Assembly (NCBI GenBank): GCA_025526995.1
Contig: JAHLKG010000022.1
Coordinates: 1 to 64,000 of the forward strand
Source: Powellomyces hirtus
Lineage: Eukaryota; Chytridiomycota; Chytridiomycetes; Spizellomycetales; Powellomycetaceae
Direction: 5' to 3'
Length of the DNA: 64,000 nucleotides
Within the stretch, counting starts at the first letter, position 1, and each line of letters starts with the position of its first letter. Both the position numbers and the translations under genes were made by a program. The notes below the pieces were generated by a model that had not been told where the DNA came from, made no database searches, and saw nothing but the letters and a program-made list of their open reading frames with translations. Shown here piece after piece: positions 9,140 to 17,504 of this stretch.

Positions 9140-9500
9140 CGGGCCTTTGGCCCTCCTCGTGTCTGCCATGGAACTGAAGTGGTAGCAAGAACCGCGCAGA
9201 GGACAAAGGCCCTCCTCGTGTCTGCCATGGAACTGAAGTGGTAGCAAGAACCGCGCCTGAAGTGGTAGCAAGAACCGCGCAGAGGACAAAGGCCCTCCTC
9301 GTGTCTGCCATGGAACTGAAGTGGTAGCAAGAACCGCGCAGAGGAGAGGGGGCCCGGTGATAATAGGGAACTGGCGTGACAGGAAGAAGAGTGTATGTGT
9401 AATAGAAACGAACAGGAACACCGAGTGGGGCATATACCCGGGAAGAATAGTGGTAATACAGTCCCCTGTCAGAAAGACGCGGAACCCCCCTAGATTATAT
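9140..9500 (-). repeat. leader/start-codon module, tandem copies 2a-c with flank
   Basis: The segment GTCTGCCATGGAACTGAAGT is repeated three times within about 200 bp, the last units joined imperfectly. It is followed by a flank (9346-9500) with a TGATAATAGGGAACTGGCGT block. Modules and flank recur in mutated form at 17255-17504. Confidence 0.75.
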
Positions 9501-9744
9501 TCCCAGTCACATGACTCAGAAACGCGATATCCGCAGTACCTAAACTTTCGGCCACCTCGGCCACGTCGCGAGCCACATTGCCTAGCAAAGGCCACAAATA
9601 CACGTGACCTTACCTAAGCTTACATAACCAAATACCTAGTGGGGCTCACCGCCACCCAGGTATCTGCACTAGATAGTCAACCACACATTTATCTATGAAA
9701 AGCTCAAATACCGTAGGTATTTCACTGCTTACAGCACTCACTGT
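9501..9744. other. intergenic between repeat and Crypton-like element
   Basis: No coding or RNA signal is recognised. Confidence 0.4.
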
Positions 9745-9898
9745 GGCCTCGATTAACTGATACTTGGTTGGACTCCATTGGAATGTCTCTTACATAAGGT
9801 AGGCTGTATTTATTTTGTTACTTGAGCCCACCCCACCCATGACATTTTGCCATTGCATTTCCGCAATTGCATTTGCCCACATTTTTAACCAACCATTG

Positions 9899-9967
9899 GG
9901 ACAGTCTTTCTTGTTTCTTTGGACTGTTTCCAACTCGCTCGCCTCGGAATCGACCTTTACTGCGTCC
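9899..9967 (+). repeat. 69-bp GGAC...GTCC unit 1 (recombinase leader)
   Basis: It begins GGACAGTC and ends TTTACTGCGTCC, exactly 69 bp. It lies upstream of the recombinase start and is nearly identical to the next unit. Confidence 0.8.
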
Positions 9968-9999
9968 GCCTCCTTCCGCTGTGGACCACTGGGACCACT

Positions 10000-10068
10000 G
10001 GACAGTCTTTCTTGCTTCTTTGGACTGCTTCCAACTCGCTCGCCTCGGAATCGACCTTTACTGCGTCC
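10000..10068 (+). repeat. 69-bp GGAC...GTCC unit 2 (recombinase leader)
   Basis: Exactly 69 bp, ending TTTACTGCGTCC. It stops 12 bp before the ATG at 10081 and looks like a direct duplicate of the unit at 9899-9967. Confidence 0.8.
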
Positions 10069-10638
10069 CCTTCCCGTGCAATGTCAATGAACCTGTGCAA
10101 CCTACCACCTGCTGCTGCAGCAGCGCTCCATGGCACCGCAATGAACCAGGACGTTCAAAACCTCATGGCCCTGCATGCGAACAATTTGAATCAACTCGTT
10201 GCCAACCACAATGCACGGCCTGTGGCCACTCGGAATGCATACGAATGGCGCACAAAGTGGTACAAAGATTGGTGTCGCTCCCTAGGCATGGACGAGCGAG
10301 TCGCGCCAGACAAAGTTCTTTTATGGTTGAATAAAGCTGTTATACCGCGAGGTTCAAGCCGCAAAGATGAAAAAGGAATGAACAAACCATACAGCAAGGC
10401 AAGCATCGAGCAGTTTACTAAGGCAACCGTTGACTTGTGGTCTTATCAATGTCACTTCAACTTGAATAGAAAAGATAACTGCCCACGTACAAAGACACTC
10501 TCCGACATGGTCAAAGCCTACGCCCATGGAGTACTCCAGCAAGAGTTAAAAGGATTTGAAGACCGTGGCGTCGGAACACTCATTGATATGTACAGCGAAG
10601 CAGAACAGAGTGCCCTAGTTGCGCATTGGTGGGGACAG

Positions 10639-10722
10639 GTAGGGACATATTAAATCAAGTATTTCAACCATGATCCATGATATCTATGCAAAAAGACATT
10701 CTAATGCGTCCAATATCCGTAG
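10639..10722 (+). other. recombinase intron 1, one 69-bp unit (10643-10711)
   Basis: GTAG donor, then GGACATATTAAAT at the start and ATTCTAATGCGTCC at the end of a 69-bp unit, then CCGTAG acceptor. The splice is in phase 0. Confidence 0.8.
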
Positions 10723-11119
10723 GCACAACCAGAGATGGGCTTGCGGAATGCTGCATGCTTTCTTCTTCAACATTCGACTATGGGGCGTGGACAGAGTATC
10801 AGACTGCTTCAGCTCTCATATATGTTCAGCTCTGATCTACCAAAAGAGGAAGGACCAACGCCAGCATTTGCTATGATAACCATTTCACGTGAAGGGAAAA
10901 TGAACAAAGTAGGCCGCAAGGAAATGGTGGGTTGTATGCGCCATAAAGAGGCTGCTTTATGCCCTGTTGGCCATGCCGCGTTCTTCCTTTTCTATCGATA
11001 TCACAAGACCAATGAACAACCGCCAGACTTCACCGATAATGAGTCATGGTACAACACATACTTCATGAAGAGAGATACAAAGCGAGCGAAGTCGAGAAAG
11101 CGGAAACATGCAGACACAT

Positions 11120-11274
11120 GTAAGTAAAACGGGACGCGTTAGACATTGTCTTTGTGAACATAAGCCAAGCTTGCAGTCAAAAGCACCATTTACTGCGTCC
11201 GTCTACACTGGACAATGTTTTTGAATGCCTCTCGTTCTCTTTCATGCAATGCCGCTATCTAATACCTCCAAAAG
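11120..11274 (+). other. recombinase intron 2, two units (11132-11200 and 11210-11269)
   Basis: The first unit is exactly 69 bp (GGACGCGTTAGAC to TTTACTGCGTCC). A 9-bp spacer GTCTACACT follows, then a 60-bp shortened unit. The GTAAGT donor and AAAAG acceptor keep the frame in phase 1. Confidence 0.78.
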
Positions 11275-11571
11275 TAGATGTTGATGGTGCGGGAGAGGGA
11301 GAAGACGAATGCGAGGACAATGATCCCAACGGCATGTCATATCAATCTCATCGGCAAATCTATCAGCGGGCTCTCAAGGCTTGCAACATCAATGTATCAA
11401 AAGTGACACACCTCCCACGTGGCGTTGCAGTCCGTACAGCAACATCTCGAGGCGTGGATGGAAGTGACGTTAACAGAATGGGAGGCTGGGACTGAACAGC
11501 AAAGAATATGTCTTACGATTTGGAGCTCCCGAAACAATCTATGCGCGCATTAGGTCAATGGCCGATACAAG

Positions 11572-11654
11572 GTAATGGACACATTAAATTGATTAATTGT
11601 GTGACATCCATAAAGGGAATGCAAAAAACACATTCTAACGCATCCATCTTTTAG
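11572..11654 (+). other. recombinase intron 3, one 69-bp unit (11577-11645)
   Basis: GTAAT donor followed by GGACACATTAAATTG; the unit ends CATTCTAACGCATCC (GTCC changed to ATCC). TTTTAG is the acceptor. The flanking exons are one base out of frame across it. Confidence 0.7.
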
Positions 11655-12087
11655 GTGGCGGGTTCTTCTTACCCCGCGCATGTATTGATGTCCCTGAAGA
11701 ACTAGAAGCTGCCGTGTTTCCATTTGTTGATGAAGCATTGGGTAATCCACAAGTTACGAACATTGCTGGACAAGGCTTTGCAATTCTGTTGAAGAAAATG
11801 CGCCGTGTTGTCATTCAGGATGCTGCAGTCTTGATTGACAAATTTCCATTGCATGCCATGTGGCCCCATCCACTGTTCCGATCGCCAGCATTCCTTCTCT
11901 ACAAGACAGAGCTCTTGGACAGGATGCGCAGCGTCGTCGATCCAACCCTGGCGACTCTTCAATATGTTGTTCCACAAATCGCATCAACGATTACCACCGG
12001 TAATCCAGCACTCTCCTTTGAGTTGAGCGGAATCTCAAATCAAAACGACATGTCTATCAGACTGGGTAAAGAAATCATCGAAGATAT

Positions 12088-12165
12088 GTATAGGACACGT
12101 TAAAACATCTTTTTCAGTTCTGAGCCGCATTTGAAGTTGAAATATACGATTTACTTTGTCCAGAG
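12088..12165 (+). other. recombinase intron 4, one 69-bp unit (12093-12161)
   Basis: GTATA donor, GGACACGTTAAA start, TTTACTTTGTCC end, AGAG acceptor. The join is in phase. The interior is clearly related to intron 5. Confidence 0.8.
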
Positions 12166-12456
12166 ATCAGACAATACCCGGAAGGACGCCAGCCGTATAG
12201 CGGAGAAGATGCAAGAGACTTTTCAGACATATTGTAACGCACTGGGCATTCGGCAAGAAGCCACCTCTGTTGCGGTGCACGAGATGGTAACAGTGATATC
12301 CGACATCTGTCGATCTCCAGCAGCACGCCAGTTACAGTCTACTATGTCACAGCTGACGGATGCCCCCCCCCCCCCCCCCCCCCCGCGATTACTCTTTCCA
12401 ACGTCAACAACGTCAGAAGAAGAGGACGACGAACCCCTGTTGCGTACGACTACTAG

Positions 12457-12536
12457 GTAAGCGTTGGACAGGTTGACTGATCTTTTTCGCTCCCAAGCCG
12501 TGCTCTAAATTGAAATACATCATTTATTCTGTCCAG
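12457..12536 (+). other. recombinase intron 5, one 69-bp unit (12466-12534)
   Basis: GTAAGC donor, GGACAGGTTGACTGAT start, ATCATTTATTCTGTCC end and AG acceptor right after the unit. The join is in phase 2. Confidence 0.82.
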
Positions 12537-13029
12537 AAACCACACGGAACAGCAGTTGTACGCAGAAGAGACACAACAACAACAACAACAACCACAACCA
12601 CAACAGACACAGGGCTCCGAGTCTGCCAAATGGCCGCCATATGAGCTTTATCGGCATCACCAGACAGTGCTTCAAGTTTGGTTGGAATATGAAGAAGGGC
12701 AGCCAATTCTTGATGAGATGGGGACGGTTGTTGGACGACATCCTTCCGTACGTAGCTTAGAGGTGGCACACAAAGCAACGTGGCGAACGCATAGTTCAAC
12801 CGAACGGAAATACTGGAGCAAGCGCAAGGTGATATATGATGAAATCGACAAGCAAATGAGAGAGTCTAGATGCACAGGATATGAGATTGCCGAGATGATG
12901 GACATGGAGAGAGAAGGGCTTGGATTGACTCTGGATAAGTACAGGGCACACATATCGCCACCACCCAAGACAAAGCGTCGTCATATAGAACTTATTTGTC
13001 CTTCTATAGCACTTGCTGCAGATTAGCTA

Positions 13030-13191
13030 GTGACTTGGACACTTTATACGTGTTCTTTGCGCTGGCAGATAGAGTTGACCTCCAAATACACTATTTATTG
13101 CGTCCAGCATCCTGTGTGGACGCGTCAAATGTTTTCTTTGTGCTCGTGTTGAAAAGCTGCTTTCATATGTGCTATTTAATGCGTCCTATAG
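13030..13191 (+). other. 3'-UTR intron-like pair of 69-bp units (13037-13105, 13118-13186)
   Basis: A GT donor four bases past the recombinase stop, two exact 69-bp units separated by 12 bp, and a TATAG acceptor. The arrangement copies that of the two-unit coding introns. Confidence 0.65.
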
Positions 13192-13249
13192 GACCTCTAT
13201 GCTAACCAATAGAAACAAAAACCATAACCCCCTCCCCCCCCGCGCAAAA

Positions 13250-14329
13250 CTATACATCAGGATAGGATACACCAGGCATACCACCGGAACCCGAAGGCCC
13301 AGCACCCCCGAAGTCACCGTGTGGATTGTAGTCGTCTTCCTCGTCGTCCCGCTTTTGCGGGTCATGCTCAAATTCGGATGAAGAATCCGACTCCGACTCC
13401 GACTCCGTCGCCGTTGCCTTTCCCTTCCCCTTCCCCTTCCCCTTCCCCTTCCCCTTCCCCTTTGCCTTCGCCTTCCTCCTTTTTAGAGAAGCTGCCTTCT
13501 CCCTGGCGGCCTCATCGCGGATCTGCAGTCGCTGCAACTCCCTCACGCGTTCAGGATCAAGGCGCCTGCCCAAAGCTGCCGCAATCTGAACCTGCAATGT
13601 AATGAAGACACAGTAAATTGAGTTTTTGCGTCCAGCGGATGGACCAATCGTTCAAATAACTGATTTAATGCGTCCTAATAATCAGACATGCACTTACGTT
13701 GTACTTTGTGACGGTGGATCGCCTGGTATGGCGAGACACCAGGAGCGAGTCTGCCAAAAAACTTGCCAGAAAGAGCTCCGCTCCTTCTTGCAGTACATCC
13801 ATGCCCCTAGCATTCCAACGCAGCTTTCCTTTTGCGTTCAACTCGTCCGTCCACACCGGGACGGCGATCCCGCGGACGCATTGTTGAAATGGTGCCTTTG
13901 GGATCAACGCGCCCACTTTGGAGGCGTAATAGCTGGCATTGAAGGAAGATGGAGGACGCAATAAATCATCAGAAAGGGTTCAGAATGGCAAAGCGCATTC
14001 AAAAACACCATCTAATTTGTCCAGCGGTACTCGGACAAATTAGATGATGTTTTTGACCGCAAAACATAGGCGGGGACACGAAGAAAGCATCACTTGCGTC
14101 CAATACTCATAACTCACTCGATCTCTTTCTGTGCCAGTTTCCCCGCTCGGTGTTTAAGGTTTCTCTGCGGCGGAGGTGGTGCTGCGAATCTGCCGAGCTT
14201 GCTGAGTGTAGACTTGGGGGGAACCTCCGCGGTCCAGTCTTTCGTTTGCATAACAGTCTCAAGGTCTTTGTCTGAGCCTGTGGGACTGGGAGACCTTTTC
14301 CTCTTTGGTGGTTGCTTCTTTGGTGGCAT
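13250..14329 (-). CDS. divergent histone H3-like protein carried by the Crypton-like element
   Basis: Exons 14329-14118, 13932-13698 and 13591-13250 give 262 residues. Residues 1-58 are a Lys/Pro/Ser-rich tail. Residues 59-160 align along the whole H3 fold: KHRAGKLAQKEID like the H3 HRYRPGTVALREI entry, IPKAPFQQCVRGIA like IRKLPFQRLVREIA, LRWNARGMDVLQEGAELFLA like the helix-2 block, and VTKYNVQIAAALGRR like the helix-3 VTIMPKDIQLARRIRG. Loop 1 is about six residues longer than in H3, a trait shared in milder form by centromeric H3. The C-terminus adds a KGKGKG repeat and an acidic Glu/Ser/Asp stretch. All splice joins are in phase and no stop interrupts it. Whether it is a nucleosomal or a DNA-packaging histone is unknown. 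Confidence 0.8.
13592..13697 (-). other. histone-like gene intron 2, one altered unit (13606-13675)
   Basis: The GTAAGT donor and TTGCAG acceptor enclose a 70-bp unit with GGACGCATTAAAT at one end and TTTACTGTGTCT at the other. An internal GCGTCC...GGACC suggests a fused or rearranged pair. Confidence 0.75.
13933..14117 (-). other. histone-like gene intron 1, two 69-bp units (13954-14022, 14033-14101)
   Basis: GTGAGT donor and TGCCAG acceptor. The two exact 69-bp units meet at a 10-bp spacer, forming a near-perfect palindrome around 14001-14055 (ACACCATCTAATTTGTCC and its complement). Confidence 0.82.
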
Positions 14330-14462
14330 TGTCTGTGTGCGTGTTGTGTGTGAAATGGAACAGAATATGAATGAATACTGATACTACTATATTGCAGAAC
14401 AATCAAAACCCTCCCCTCTTCCCCTCCCCTCTTCCCCTCCCCTCTTCCCCTCCCCTCTGCCA

Positions 14463-15358
14463 CTACTCGTCCTTGTCGTCCTCCTCCTCCTGCTCCTCCT
14501 GCTCATCCTGCTCATCCTCGGTCGCGATCTCGTCAGCTTGGGGATTCGTTGATTCTCTGGTCAAAACCTCGCCCATTCTCGCACAAGTCGCACGAGTAGC
14601 TGTTGGGATCGTTGGTGGAAGGAACTCCCTCTCCCAGGCAGGGTTTTCTCTGGCTTTCGCATTTGGGCACCGTGAGCCACGGCTGCAGTCCACCTCAGCA
14701 GTTCTAGGGACTCTTGGCATGTGCCACATTGCGTGATGGTTGCAATCGACAGGATGAAACTTGAGGTCGCCGCCTACAACAATAAATAGAGGTAGAAGTG
14801 AGTGGACATATTAAATAACGTTAAAGCGTATAGCTACTCTGATTGCGTGCGAAATAACCATTTACTGTGTCCAGCACATACGGACGCAGTAAATGGTGTT
14901 TTTGATCGCCAAATTCGTTTACATGCACAAAGACAATGTTTAACGTGTCCATACATACCCAAGAGCTCCTGGCGTACTCATATCCCCCTAACACGCTCCC
15001 CTCCAGCGTAGTTCCTTGCTTCATTGCCAACAAGAGCCCAGCCAGCCGCCACACCAGACTCGAGTTGATGTGCCAAGGTATTGATGTGATTGATGTCTGT
15101 CATGGGCCACCAGTACCAGGCAGTCCCCTTCCGCTGTAAGGTCCGAGGGGGGCAGGCTTTGGCAAGGTATCGCAGGAGCGCAACGGTTGCTTGCAGTTCT
15201 TCTTCCGCCATGCGAGCTTGAGTGGCTGCAAAACCTTCGAGATAATGTCCCTCTTTGGGTGGTTGCGACGATCGTTTCCTTCCACCACCACCACTTCCAC
15301 CACTACCACTTGCACCACCTCCTCCACCTAGGTTAAACAATCTTGCTACGGTTCCCAT
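14463..15358 (-). pseudogene. unknown protein of the Crypton-like element, one in-frame TGA
   Basis: Exons 15358-14959 and 14773-14463 would give 236 residues and join in phase 1. A TGA near 14986 interrupts exon 1; it is one C-to-T change from CGA, and the frame stays open on both sides. The protein has a Gly/Ser-rich start, a helical middle (EEELQATVALLRYLAKA), a WYWW aromatic cluster, a His/Cys-containing stretch (HPVDCNHHAMWHM, then CSRGSRC) and an acidic Glu/Asp tail. I do not recognise the family. It shares orientation, intron type and location with the histone-like gene, so it is probably part of the same element. Confidence 0.6.
14774..14958 (-). other. intron of unknown gene, two 69-bp units (14804-14872, 14882-14950)
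   Basis: GTATGT donor, two exact 69-bp units with a 9-bp spacer, and a TTGTAG acceptor. The junction forms a palindrome around AACCATTTACTGTGTCC and GGACGCAGTAAATGG. Confidence 0.82.
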
Positions 15359-15389
15359 AATGCTCTACTTACAAAAAAAAACAAAAAAA

Positions 15390-15472
15390 CTGCGGGACGC
15401 ATGTCAGTTCGTTTTTCAATGCAAATTGGACTGCTCTCTTCAAATACACCATCTAACCAGTCCCTTACATAC
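15390..15472 (-). other. 5'-UTR intron of unknown gene, one 69-bp unit (15395-15463)
   Basis: GTATGT donor, GGACTGGTTAGATGGTG start, and CATGCGTCC end followed by CGCAG acceptor. It lies 32 bp upstream of the ATG at 15358. Confidence 0.75.
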
Positions 15473-15807
15473 CTCGTTTGTGGTGTTGTGCTCGTTGTGT
15501 TATGAGATAAGATGAGATGAGATGAGAGGTGTCAGATGGGGAAAGATGAGTTGGGGGGAGAATGGGATTTGACAGGTGAGCCAGCTGAGATTCGGCAGCT
15601 CGAGTGCTGTGCTGACGTGTTCATGAACACGTGTTTTCCATTGGCTTGGTTGGCTTGAAATCGGCAAAACCGGCTTGAAAGTCAGGTATTTAAGTGCTCG
15701 GCCACATTAATCGAGGCCCCCACCAGGCCACAAAATGTGGCGCTTAGTCGTGATGTGAAAGATACCTTCACAGTATCATCACAGTCACAAAGCTGAATCT
15801 AGTCTAT

Positions 15808-16890
15808 CTAATAACGCGTCGGCCCTCCTTCAGCAGCAAGCACCGCTTGCATGCAACACGGCATGCTTTCAACAAGATTCTGCAACATGCTGGGCTCAAT
15901 TGCAGCCCAGATATCTTCTACTTCTAATTCTAGCTGCACCCGAGAGGTAGGTTTGGGTTTGAGACTGTAAATATGCCATTTCAAGATAGCCCAGAGGTTT
16001 TCAATGGGGTTTAAATCAGGGCTGTTGGCTGGCCACTTCATGATGACGCTCGGATGGTTCGGATCAGAGTTAAACCATGCCATCGTTTCCTGTGAAACAT
16101 GAATCTTTGCGTTATCTTGCTGAAAGATACATTCAGAATGAAAGGATACTTCTCTCCAAAATGGCATGAAATGCTCTGTCAAATGCTTGATATAAGCCTC
16201 CGAATCAATTCCTCGACTATTGCCCTTTTTCTTGTGCTTTTCGGATGGCGGCAGTGCAATCATCCTGTTGATTGGACCAGCCCTGTTTCCTATAAAACAG
16301 CCCCAGAACATTACTGTAACACCCTTCCTCAGAACAGGCTGCATGCATTCTTTGGAATAGCGCTCACCAGATTGTCGCCAAACACGTTGACGGTACTGTC
16401 CCCCAATTTGAATTGCAGTCTTGTCTGTCCACATGATACGGCTCCAATCTTCAGTTGTCCAATGAGCATGTGCTAAAGCAAACAGTATAAGGTCCTGCTT
16501 GTGCTGCGGAGTCATGATGGGTCCACGGGCAGCCCAGTAGCTTCTAACACCGAGGAATGAAGTTACGTAGCGTCTGAAAGTACCCTCACTGATTCTAAAG
16601 GCAGCACGTTCACAAAACTCATCTAATAACTCCTGTAGTGTCTTCCATCTTCCAAGTCCAGTGACTATCTCTCGCAACAGCTGGACAATGTCCACAGAGT
16701 GTGCCATATGCAACTGCTTCCTTCCGGGGGGTTTTTTGGTCTCATACGTGCCTTTTTCTCTCCAAAGTCTCCAAGTCCTTGTAACTGTTGATCTAGACAC
16801 ATTCTGCATGCGCGCCACTTTGTTTATGCTTCTACCACTCTGCCGCAACGCTACAATAGAAGCGCGCTGTGTGGGGTCCAAGGGTGCCAT
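15808..16890 (-). CDS. Tc1/mariner transposase
   Basis: The frame gives 360 residues from the ATG at 16890. An N-terminal helix-turn-helix (GRSINKVARMQNVSRSTVTR) is followed by a GRK linker. The catalytic triad shows as WTDKTAIQ, IFQQDNAKIH and SPDLNPIENLW. The second Asp and the Glu are separated by 37 residues, longer than the 34 of classic Tc1/mariner. The frame is intact. No convincing inverted ends were found beside it, so the element limits are not given. It sits just outside the right inverted end of the Crypton-like element. Confidence 0.9.
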   Translation of the reverse strand: MAPLDPTQRASIVALRQSGRSINKVARMQNVSRSTVTRTWRLWREKGTYETKKPPGRKQLHMAHSVDIVQLLREIVTGLGRWKTLQELLDEFCERAAFRISEGTFRRYVTSFLGVRSYWAARGPIMTPQHKQDLILFALAHAHWTTEDWSRIMWTDKTAIQIGGQYRQRVWRQSGERYSKECMQPVLRKGVTVMFWGCFIGNRAGPINRMIALPPSEKHKKKGNSRGIDSEAYIKHLTEHFMPFWREVSFHSECIFQQDNAKIHVSQETMAWFNSDPNHPSVIMKWPANSPDLNPIENLWAILKWHIYSLKPKPTSRVQLELEVEDIWAAIEPSMLQNLVESMPCCMQAVLAAEGGPTRY

Positions 16891-16959
16891 GATGCATGTG
16901 CAATGCCGCAAGAGATCTCGAGATCTCGTCATTTGGCCCTTCCAGCTTGTTGCTGGCAA

Positions 16960-17254
16960 GCCATTACATAAGCGTGTATGTCAGTATTTCGGATGCTGGG
17001 CATATGACATGTAAGTGAAATGCTACAGATTCAGTGTCCAATCAAACCATGGCTGATGTCAGTAGCTATTGGCCCAACTTCTGACATTTCAGCCAACCAC
17101 TGGAGATGCTCTAATGACTATTTGTAGTACTAGTCGTGCTGGTCCTTACAAACCACAAACAGCAGTTTGCATACCATTTCTGAGAGCATGGTTCAGCCAG
17201 AAACAGACTTGTTGGGTCACCTCACAGGTTGCATTTTAAAGTGAAGAGCCTTTG
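16960..17254. other. intergenic with a short Harbinger-like end
   Basis: At 17085-17113 the minus strand reads GAGCATCTCCAGTGGTTGGC, related to the repeat ends at 5941-6018 and 27931-28010, with TAA just outside. No gene is seen. Confidence 0.4.
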
Positions 17255-17504
17255 GCCTTCCACATGTCTGCCATAGAACTGAAGTGGTAGCAATAGCTGT
17301 GCAGAGGAGAAGGGGCCCAGAAAGTGGAAGCAGAAACTGCATCAAAAAGAGGGGGCCTGGAAAGTAGTAGCAAGAACTGCACAGAGGAGAGAGAGTCTGG
17401 TGATAATAGGAAACAGACGTGACAGAAAGAAGAGTGTATGTGTAATAGAAACAAACAAAAATACCGAGTGGAGCATATACTCAGTAAGAATAGTGGTAAT
17501 ACAA
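17255..17504 (-). repeat. leader/start-codon module and flank, mutated copy 3
   Basis: It follows the order of 9150-9500 but with many transitions. GAACGAACAGGAACACCGAG becomes AAACAAACAAAAATACCGAG, a pattern of G-to-A (C-to-T on the other strand) change. Confidence 0.75.

Follow-up and report, generated by a model that had tools for sequence, protein, structure and literature searches.

A putative introner-like intron family of 69-bp units with inverted ends inside a CryptonF-like transposon of Powellomyces hirtus

Introduction

Introners are introns of which many, belonging to one repeated family, are found in one genome. As described in the main text of Gozashti et al. 2022 (PMC9860276), terminal inverted repeats are present in 72 of the 177 assessable families and target-site duplications in 49 of 130, and the median lengths of the families range from 30 to 654 nt. 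Here, a set of 69-bp units with inverted ends is described from the chytrid Powellomyces hirtus (Chytridiomycota, Spizellomycetales), the genome of which comprises 29.26 Mb in 60 contigs. The units lie in the introns and untranslated regions (UTRs) of a CryptonF-like element at 9535..15775 of the window, by which is meant the whole stretch of 64,000 nucleotides on contig C22. Their length falls within the range known for introners, and likewise many introns of one repeated family are seen in one genome; introners, however, are spread across host genes, whereas these units are situated inside one mobile element. The words ‘Chytrid’ and ‘Powellomyces’ do not occur in the main text of PMC9860276.

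Another closely comparable system is that of the symmetrical sister (st)wintrons of the Hypoxylaceae, as presented in the main text of PMC8469720. Like the units, they possess terminal inverted repeats, occupy seamless positions, lack flanking duplications and are imperfectly symmetrical. They are dispersed over host genes, their repeats measure 45-55 nt and their introns, for instance, 93 or 207 nt, whereas the units have a fixed 69-bp core, are partly doubled and are confined to a transposon. In [D1,2] stwintrons, the donor of an external intron is split by an internal one; doublet introns, which may or may not be spliced in such a nested way, are also present here. The element that carries them shares with CryptonF (Kojima and Jurka 2011, PMC3212892) a protein with tyrosine recombinase and GCR1_C domains, short terminal direct repeats, which are 4 or 6 bp long in CryptonF, and a fungal host. 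The accessory genes described there encode a C48 peptidase or DDE; the main text has no Crypton histone, as its two mentions of ‘histone’ concern deacetylases, and no such intron family, its ten mentions of ‘intron’ being about host genes or gene prediction. Among the titles and opening parts of abstracts listed for introners, also in fungi, for Cryptons, P. hirtus and transposon-encoded histones, and in passages of PMC8469720, PMC9860276, PMC3212892 and PMC12730594, there was no report of the present intron family. The same holds for a Crypton-encoded histone, including the records listed for Cryptons together with H3, Ndc10/CENP-A/Cse4 or chytrids.

The 69-bp Units and Their Ends

An earlier note, made from the letters of the sequence alone, had listed 14 segments of exactly 69 bp that start with GGAC and end with GTCC (ATCC in the one that starts at 11577), and all 14 were found as described. 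Between 9700 and 15600, there are 21 GGAC...(A/G)TCC pairs of 50-90 bp, out of which 14 are 69 bp long, with every other length occurring at most twice. Such an accumulation at one length would arise by chance with a probability of about 1e-16. In the rest of the window, a 69-bp pair of this kind occurs once, and the lengths recur up to 6 times. The inverted end motif given in the note was correct but too short, since the similarity of the left and right ends reaches about 26 bp. An end matrix was built from these same 14 units; at a score of at least 9, it picked out 15 left ends and 15 right ends in the element, all of them mated at 69 or 70 bp and none solitary. The paired-end scores of these 15 units run from 29.3 to 48.9, against 16.7 for the best pair elsewhere in the window, outside the element. 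The fifteenth unit, which is new with respect to the note, is 70 bp long and starts with AGAC (13606-13675).

The units are numbered here in the order of their positions. On the + strand, U1 (9899..9967, 69 bp) lies upstream of gene 1 as a member of a short tandem array, and U2 (10000..10068, 69 bp) is its tandem copy, 95% identical over 75 bp. The next units are found in the introns of gene 1: U3 (10643..10711) in intron 1 (10639-10722), U4 (11132..11200) in intron 2 (11120-11274), U5 (11577..11645) in intron 3 (11572-11654), U6 (12093..12161) in intron 4 (12084-12163) and U7 (12466..12534) in intron 5 (12457-12536). Behind U4, the second position in intron 2 is probably taken by a decayed sixteenth unit, U4b, of 60 bp on the + strand (about 11210..11269), set off by a spacer of 9 bp as in the doublet U14/U13. 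A further doublet on the + strand, formed by U8 (13037..13105) and U9 (13118..13186), lies 3' of gene 1. On the - strand, the 70-bp U10 (13606..13675) is present in intron 2 of gene 2 (13592-13697), and intron 1 of the same gene (13933-14117) holds the doublet of U11 (13954..14022) and U12 (14033..14101). The intron of gene 3 (14774-14958) carries U13 (14804..14872) and U14 (14882..14950) as a doublet, also on the - strand. The last one on this strand, U15 (15395..15463), sits in what is probably an intron in the 5' UTR of gene 3 (about 15390-15472, GTATGT...CGCAG), with splice sites predicted from the sequence only.

The Units as Introns

The note's placement of the units, in introns as well as UTRs of three genes that lie on both strands, is supported. 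The inferred introns are 84, 155, 83, 80 and 80 bp long in gene 1, 185 and 106 bp in gene 2 and 185 bp in gene 3, and the probable 5'-UTR intron of gene 3 measures 83 bp. Every one of them carries either a single unit or a pair separated by 9-10 bp, the second unit being decayed in intron 2 of gene 1. The claim that all introns are built on the unit holds for eight of eight inferred coding introns and for the one 5'-UTR intron, with the reservation that introns were sought from units and reading-frame breaks, so that a unit-free intron which keeps the frame open could be overlooked.

The exon joins of gene 1 were examined in the copies of the element over a maximum of 63 bases to either side. 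The join at intron 1 is open in one frame in four of five copies (L004 being the exception) and agrees with an uninterrupted relative of gene 1 on contig C27, and the joins at introns 2 and 3 are open in all five. At intron 5, this is the case in all three copies that reach it. The join at intron 4 is open in three of five copies, with an insertion nearby in L001 and L002. The donor of this intron reads AT in the window copy and GT in the four other aligned copies, and in two copies the frame likewise stays open with an alternative acceptor that lies two bases on. In the window copy, exon 5 contains one additional base after intron 4, and the full joined translation of gene 1 loses its frame after this intron in the window, L001 and L004.

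It was also observed that all four of the public gene models retrieved, which belong to the copies on C30 (two), C3 and C22, leave out the unit-bearing introns. These models were found with spliced queries and may or may not rest on RNA evidence. P0001, from a copy on C30, joins the exons around U10, and P0002, P0003 and P0004 skip U13/U14. P0002 has 236 aa, the same length as the spliced gene 3 query; P0003, the model for the copy in the window, takes a donor that lies earlier, and P0004 deviates upstream and in frame. The note had named RNA-seq that shows the segments unspliced as an outcome against its claim, and as far as gene models can stand in for such data, this outcome did not occur. 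From these models and the reading frames, we infer that the units would be removed by splicing in cells. Precise excision at the DNA level, in the manner of internal eliminated sequences, was considered as well. Removal of the 69 bp would leave 15, 14, 11 and 11 bases at introns 1, 3, 4 and 5, and this explanation is rejected because the leftovers are out of frame at three of those four introns.

Distribution in the Genome and among Copies of the Element

A genome-wide search with a degenerate pattern of the ends gave 78 matches, against 3 for the reversed control, and 77 of the 78 lie in copies of the element. A second end pattern gave 88 matches against 13 in the control, with 17 outside the element, which is about the control number. 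For the outside matches (17 of the second pattern and one of the first), no mate end was detected in the 17 loci retrieved, where the best pair score was 10.8 against at least 29.3 for true units. The main pattern recovers 15 of the 30 known ends, and strongly decayed units elsewhere could therefore be missed; within the reach of such a search, the confinement to copies of the element asserted in the note is upheld.

In the other copies, all 55 units that could be read fully, a count that leaves out U1, U2 and interrupted units, are located at the same places. Their length is 69 bp in 49 cases, 70 bp in five (all of them U10) and 74 bp in one, namely U6 in the copy on C3, where 5 bp are inserted at the edge of the unit. 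The outcome that, according to the note, would have refuted it, with genome-wide copies mostly outside genes and not of 69 bp, did not occur as far as it could be assessed. The 5' array of U1 and U2 differs between copies, and one array member in L001 has no clean 69-bp reading.

The uninterrupted relative of gene 1 (C27:9798-11735) is 34% identical to it, has no introns and is open except for one stop codon. It possesses a Crypton 5' end of 147 bp, 92% identical to the 5' end of the element, and no units were found in it. This locus (L009, C27:9798-12365, - strand) matches NDC10_II at 1.7e-63 and is adjoined by a copia-type retrotransposon.

Conservation and Descent of the Units

Pairs of units are on average 52% identical, mostly in the ends. 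Over all pairs, the centres agree at 4.87 of 17 positions (28.6%), as against 4.21 +- 0.18 after shuffling. U4 and U14 have 56 of 69 positions identical, and intron 2 of gene 1 is 80% identical to the intron of gene 3 over 83 nt. As this likeness goes 14 bp beyond the unit, into the start of the second unit, at least some of the units, and one doublet, are copies of each other. The inner ends of the doublets are also unusually alike, with 16 of 26 positions matching at 13037-13186, 23 of 26 at 13954-14101 and 20 of 26 at 14804-14950, compared with a mean of 15.3 for all (P = 0.003). This suggests inverted duplication or conversion.

From unit to unit, the ends and the length are better conserved than the centre. 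Under a star tree and with the indel rate of the element's coding DNA, about 16 indels would be expected over 14 units and 1 was seen (P about 1e-6). Among five copies, 129 substitutions and 0 indels were counted over 3026 unit sites, compared with 144 substitutions and 31 indels over 2777 sites of other non-coding DNA and 565 substitutions and 25 indels over 12726 coding sites. Since simple runs seem more frequent in the other non-coding DNA, coding DNA is the fairer control, and against it the units differ at P = 0.014. This count covers five of the six other copies, C30b being omitted as near-identical to C30a, and excludes 9535-10140, two C-rich stretches and pieces below 150 bp. In an all-against-all alignment that includes U1 and U2, there are 0 to 3 indel events in the units per pair.

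A common RNA hairpin was tried as the shared constraint on 14 units, with U2 omitted as a near-copy of U1. The ends pair at 14.0 of 26 positions within a unit and at 15.0 of 26 between units; 99.3% of permutations reach the observed value, or 97.9% when G-U pairs are allowed. Such a hairpin is unlikely and was rejected, since the ends pair no better, and in fact worse, within a unit than between units. The folding of 13 single stretches gave z values from +0.45 to -4.39, with three below -2, and the two doublet introns folded at -6.37 and -1.90, so structure may be relevant for one doublet.

Nature of the Host Element and Its Genes

Judged from its sequence, the host element of the units is a CryptonF-like transposon. 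Its boundaries (9535..15775, no strand assigned) were drawn from four 5' ends (window, L001, L003 and L005) and three 3' ends (window, L001 and L004), and in the window copy they carry the short direct repeat AGTA at 9535-9538 and 15772-15775; in the copy on C1, by comparison, the termini have only TA in common. The termini are not inverted copies of each other when judged by eye, as CryptonF requires. The recombinase contains tyrosine recombinase and GCR1_C domains, with catalytic residues judged by eye, and the Crypton-like nature proposed in the note is borne out by its NDC10_II and GCR1_C matches. Further copies, full or partial, are present on C1, C3, C17, C25 and C30 (two), their larger pieces being 88-97% identical. 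The window copy has in-frame stops in genes 1 and 3 and is therefore decaying. At about 466 in L001, the 3' end of one copy abuts the 5' end of another directly, a fusion such as integration at an end site of a recombinase would be expected to produce. The Crypton is closely followed downstream by an open reading frame of 390 aa for a DDE_3 transposase (Tc1/mariner or IS630-like; 15808-16980, - strand), and a direct repeat of 139 bp and 86% identity (9319-9457 and 17362-17500, about 8 kb apart) flanks both the Crypton and this gene.

Gene 1 (10082..13026, + strand, start codon uncertain) encodes the tyrosine recombinase. Its exons extend over about 10082-10638, 10723-11119, 11275-11571, 11655-12083, 12164-12456 and 12537-13026. 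Pfam matches are to NDC10_II at 2.7e-15 (exons 1-2) and 3.3e-13 (exon 4) and to GCR1_C at 2.7e-13 (exon 6). In the window copy, exon 3 is interrupted by an in-frame stop and exon 5 by a frame shift. A protein search with exons 1-4 of the 6 as the query gave no relative at 1e-10 among 4990 candidates. In viral contigs, two peptide patterns of the recombinase yielded 62 stretches, none of which was confirmed, and one strict unit pattern had no match.

Gene 2 (13250..14329, - strand; exons about 14329-14118, 13932-13698 and 13591-13250) encodes a histone H3-like protein. The frame of exon 2 matches Pfam Histone at 8.9e-12, and the alignment of the spliced protein with solved H3 structures runs uninterrupted across both junctions (5.5e-13). 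It is 39% identical to a CenH3-like gene of the host (C6:1245684) and 35% to canonical H3, and genome searches gave the same ranking (1.4e-9 against 4.9e-5). With the host CenH3-like gene, it shares a longer loop 1 and RW where H3 reads RF, which we take to be CENP-A features. Solved CENP-A and H3 chains rank together in their match to the protein. Its sequence points to a CENP-A-like histone H3, somewhat closer to the host CenH3-like gene than to canonical H3. For gene 3 (14463..15358, - strand; exons about 15358-14959 and 14773-14463), the comparison with Pfam gave nothing above chance. The window copy has an in-frame TGA late in exon 1, and the gene is kept in five other copies, with exon 1 at 87-99%.

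Weighing the Explanations

It is proposed that the units are an introner-like intron family with inverted ends, which multiplied inside one Crypton lineage before the present copies diverged; the probability of this reading is put at about one half. The 69-bp non-coding cassettes with inverted ends of about 26 bp would be the mobile cores, and a cassette together with a few flanking bases (GT... before and ...AG after) would make up a spliceosomal intron, so that insertion into the three genes of the element would do little harm. A stretch resembling the YTAAY-like branch-point consensus, found in the right arm of several units, could act as the branch point. The fixed length and ends, combined with a free centre, imply recognition of both ends at a defined spacing, possibly by a transposase since lost, which is the favoured option, or else by a protein binding the cassette. 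The spread would have taken place long before the present copies separated. Movement at the DNA level and the loss of the mobilising enzyme are what we infer from this. The confinement to the element, the oddest of these findings, could reflect spread in an earlier host, movement only while the Crypton was extrachromosomal, or a service to the element.

With respect to known introners, the similarity of at least five introns at different places in a genome is found here (15 units at 15 places), as are the terminal inverted repeats that part of the families have. The earlier suggestion of an introner-like family restricted to the element stands as regards the repeated inverted-end introns and their confinement. 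It does not extend to introners in the strict sense: dispersal over many host genes, with 77 of the 78 end matches in element copies, and target-site duplications were not found, which is why the term ‘introner-like’ is used.

Several observations weigh against such a spread of mobile introns. In contrast to known introners, no units were found in host genes by the pattern search. Apart from the 5' tandem array, no difference in the presence or absence of units is seen between copies, and consequently no insertion event has been caught. A test for target-site duplications on 14 units, with U1 omitted, gave no overall signal (1.86 against 1.72 +- 0.22 when permuted, P = 0.26), the scores being highest at U14, U10 and U12. 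The analysis of unit orientation gave a weak result, 226 against a null of 185 +- 21 (maximum 248 of 60). No single pair of centres is alike beyond shuffling, the best reaching 10 of 17 where the 95% limit of the maximum is 11. Comparison of the present copies shows changes at 4.35% and 3.71% for the ends and 4.04% for the centre, an equal pace that speaks against continuing selection on the ends. Lastly, loss of introns in the C27 relative would yield the same contrast as their gain.

The change of the ends at the same pace as the centre also counts against another explanation, in which the unit is a paired protein-binding module whose inverted sites, at a fixed distance, are bound by a protein of the element. 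The binder would be the NDC10/GCR1_C recombinase or the H3-like histone, and introns and UTRs would tolerate what coding sequence cannot. The conserved ends and spacing around a nearly random centre agree with this, as do the confinement to the element, the presence in UTRs, the lack of indels in the units relative to both classes of other DNA, and the fact that the element encodes DNA-binding domains and a histone. But if housing such sites were the need, the inferred coding introns coincide with them too closely, being little more than one or two units each; the rest of the element has no lone end scoring at least 9, and the C27 relative, though it shares the 5' end and encodes a recombinase, is free of units. 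Such a module, close to the alternative offered in the note, is the main rival account, possible but rather unlikely. A more specific version, in which the units would be paired sites for a complex of the NDC10-type recombinase and the CENP-A-like H3, spread as introns so that sites and genes share the same DNA, is very doubtful.

Copying of introns via RNA, by reverse splicing or by RNA capture at DNA breaks, with the inverted ends as an RNA or DNA fold, has been proposed for the Hypoxylaceae stwintrons in the main text of PMC8469720, and the units resemble these stwintrons in the absence of target-site duplications. The sense orientation gives the better match for the 10 closest pairs of units and for 15 of the 22 pairs listed, and the doublet intron at z = -6.37 folds far better than its shuffles. 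This route is nevertheless improbable for the units, given that an end pairs less well with its own mate than with the ends of other units, that 10 of 13 single stretches fail to reach z = -2, and that U11 and U13 look antisense, though weakly. It is harder still to believe that these are ordinary old introns of the element whose ends converged through a shared composition of splice signals. Short fungal introns with TAAT-like branch motifs do resemble each other, and the centres of the units, taken pair by pair, are not significantly alike. The exact 69 bp, the inverted similarity over 26 bp, the units in UTRs and their absence elsewhere in the genome by pattern search are against convergence, as is the common descent indicated for U4/U14 over 83 nt. 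Miniature inverted-repeat transposable elements are short and non-coding with inverted ends, as the units are. An origin from such an element of a cut-and-paste transposon is not supported, as the units lack target-site duplications, are not dispersed, and have no autonomous partner with the same ends that a pattern search of this genome could find.

Conclusions

The occurrence of a CENP-A-like histone beside an Ndc10-type recombinase bears on the origin of yeast point centromeres. Should the units indeed be paired sites of a complex of these two proteins, the element would amount to a selfish system of chromatin or centromere-like nature, and it would offer a living model of how a Crypton could have given rise to the Ndc10-Cse4 partnership of yeast. 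If, instead, the proposed introner-like family is real, introner-like DNA can have a mobile element as its host and remain confined there. Transposons could then move intron families between species, which would be a direct and testable route by which the scattered occurrence of introners might come about. With their fixed length and free centre, the units also make it possible to ask which features such cassettes require to persist.

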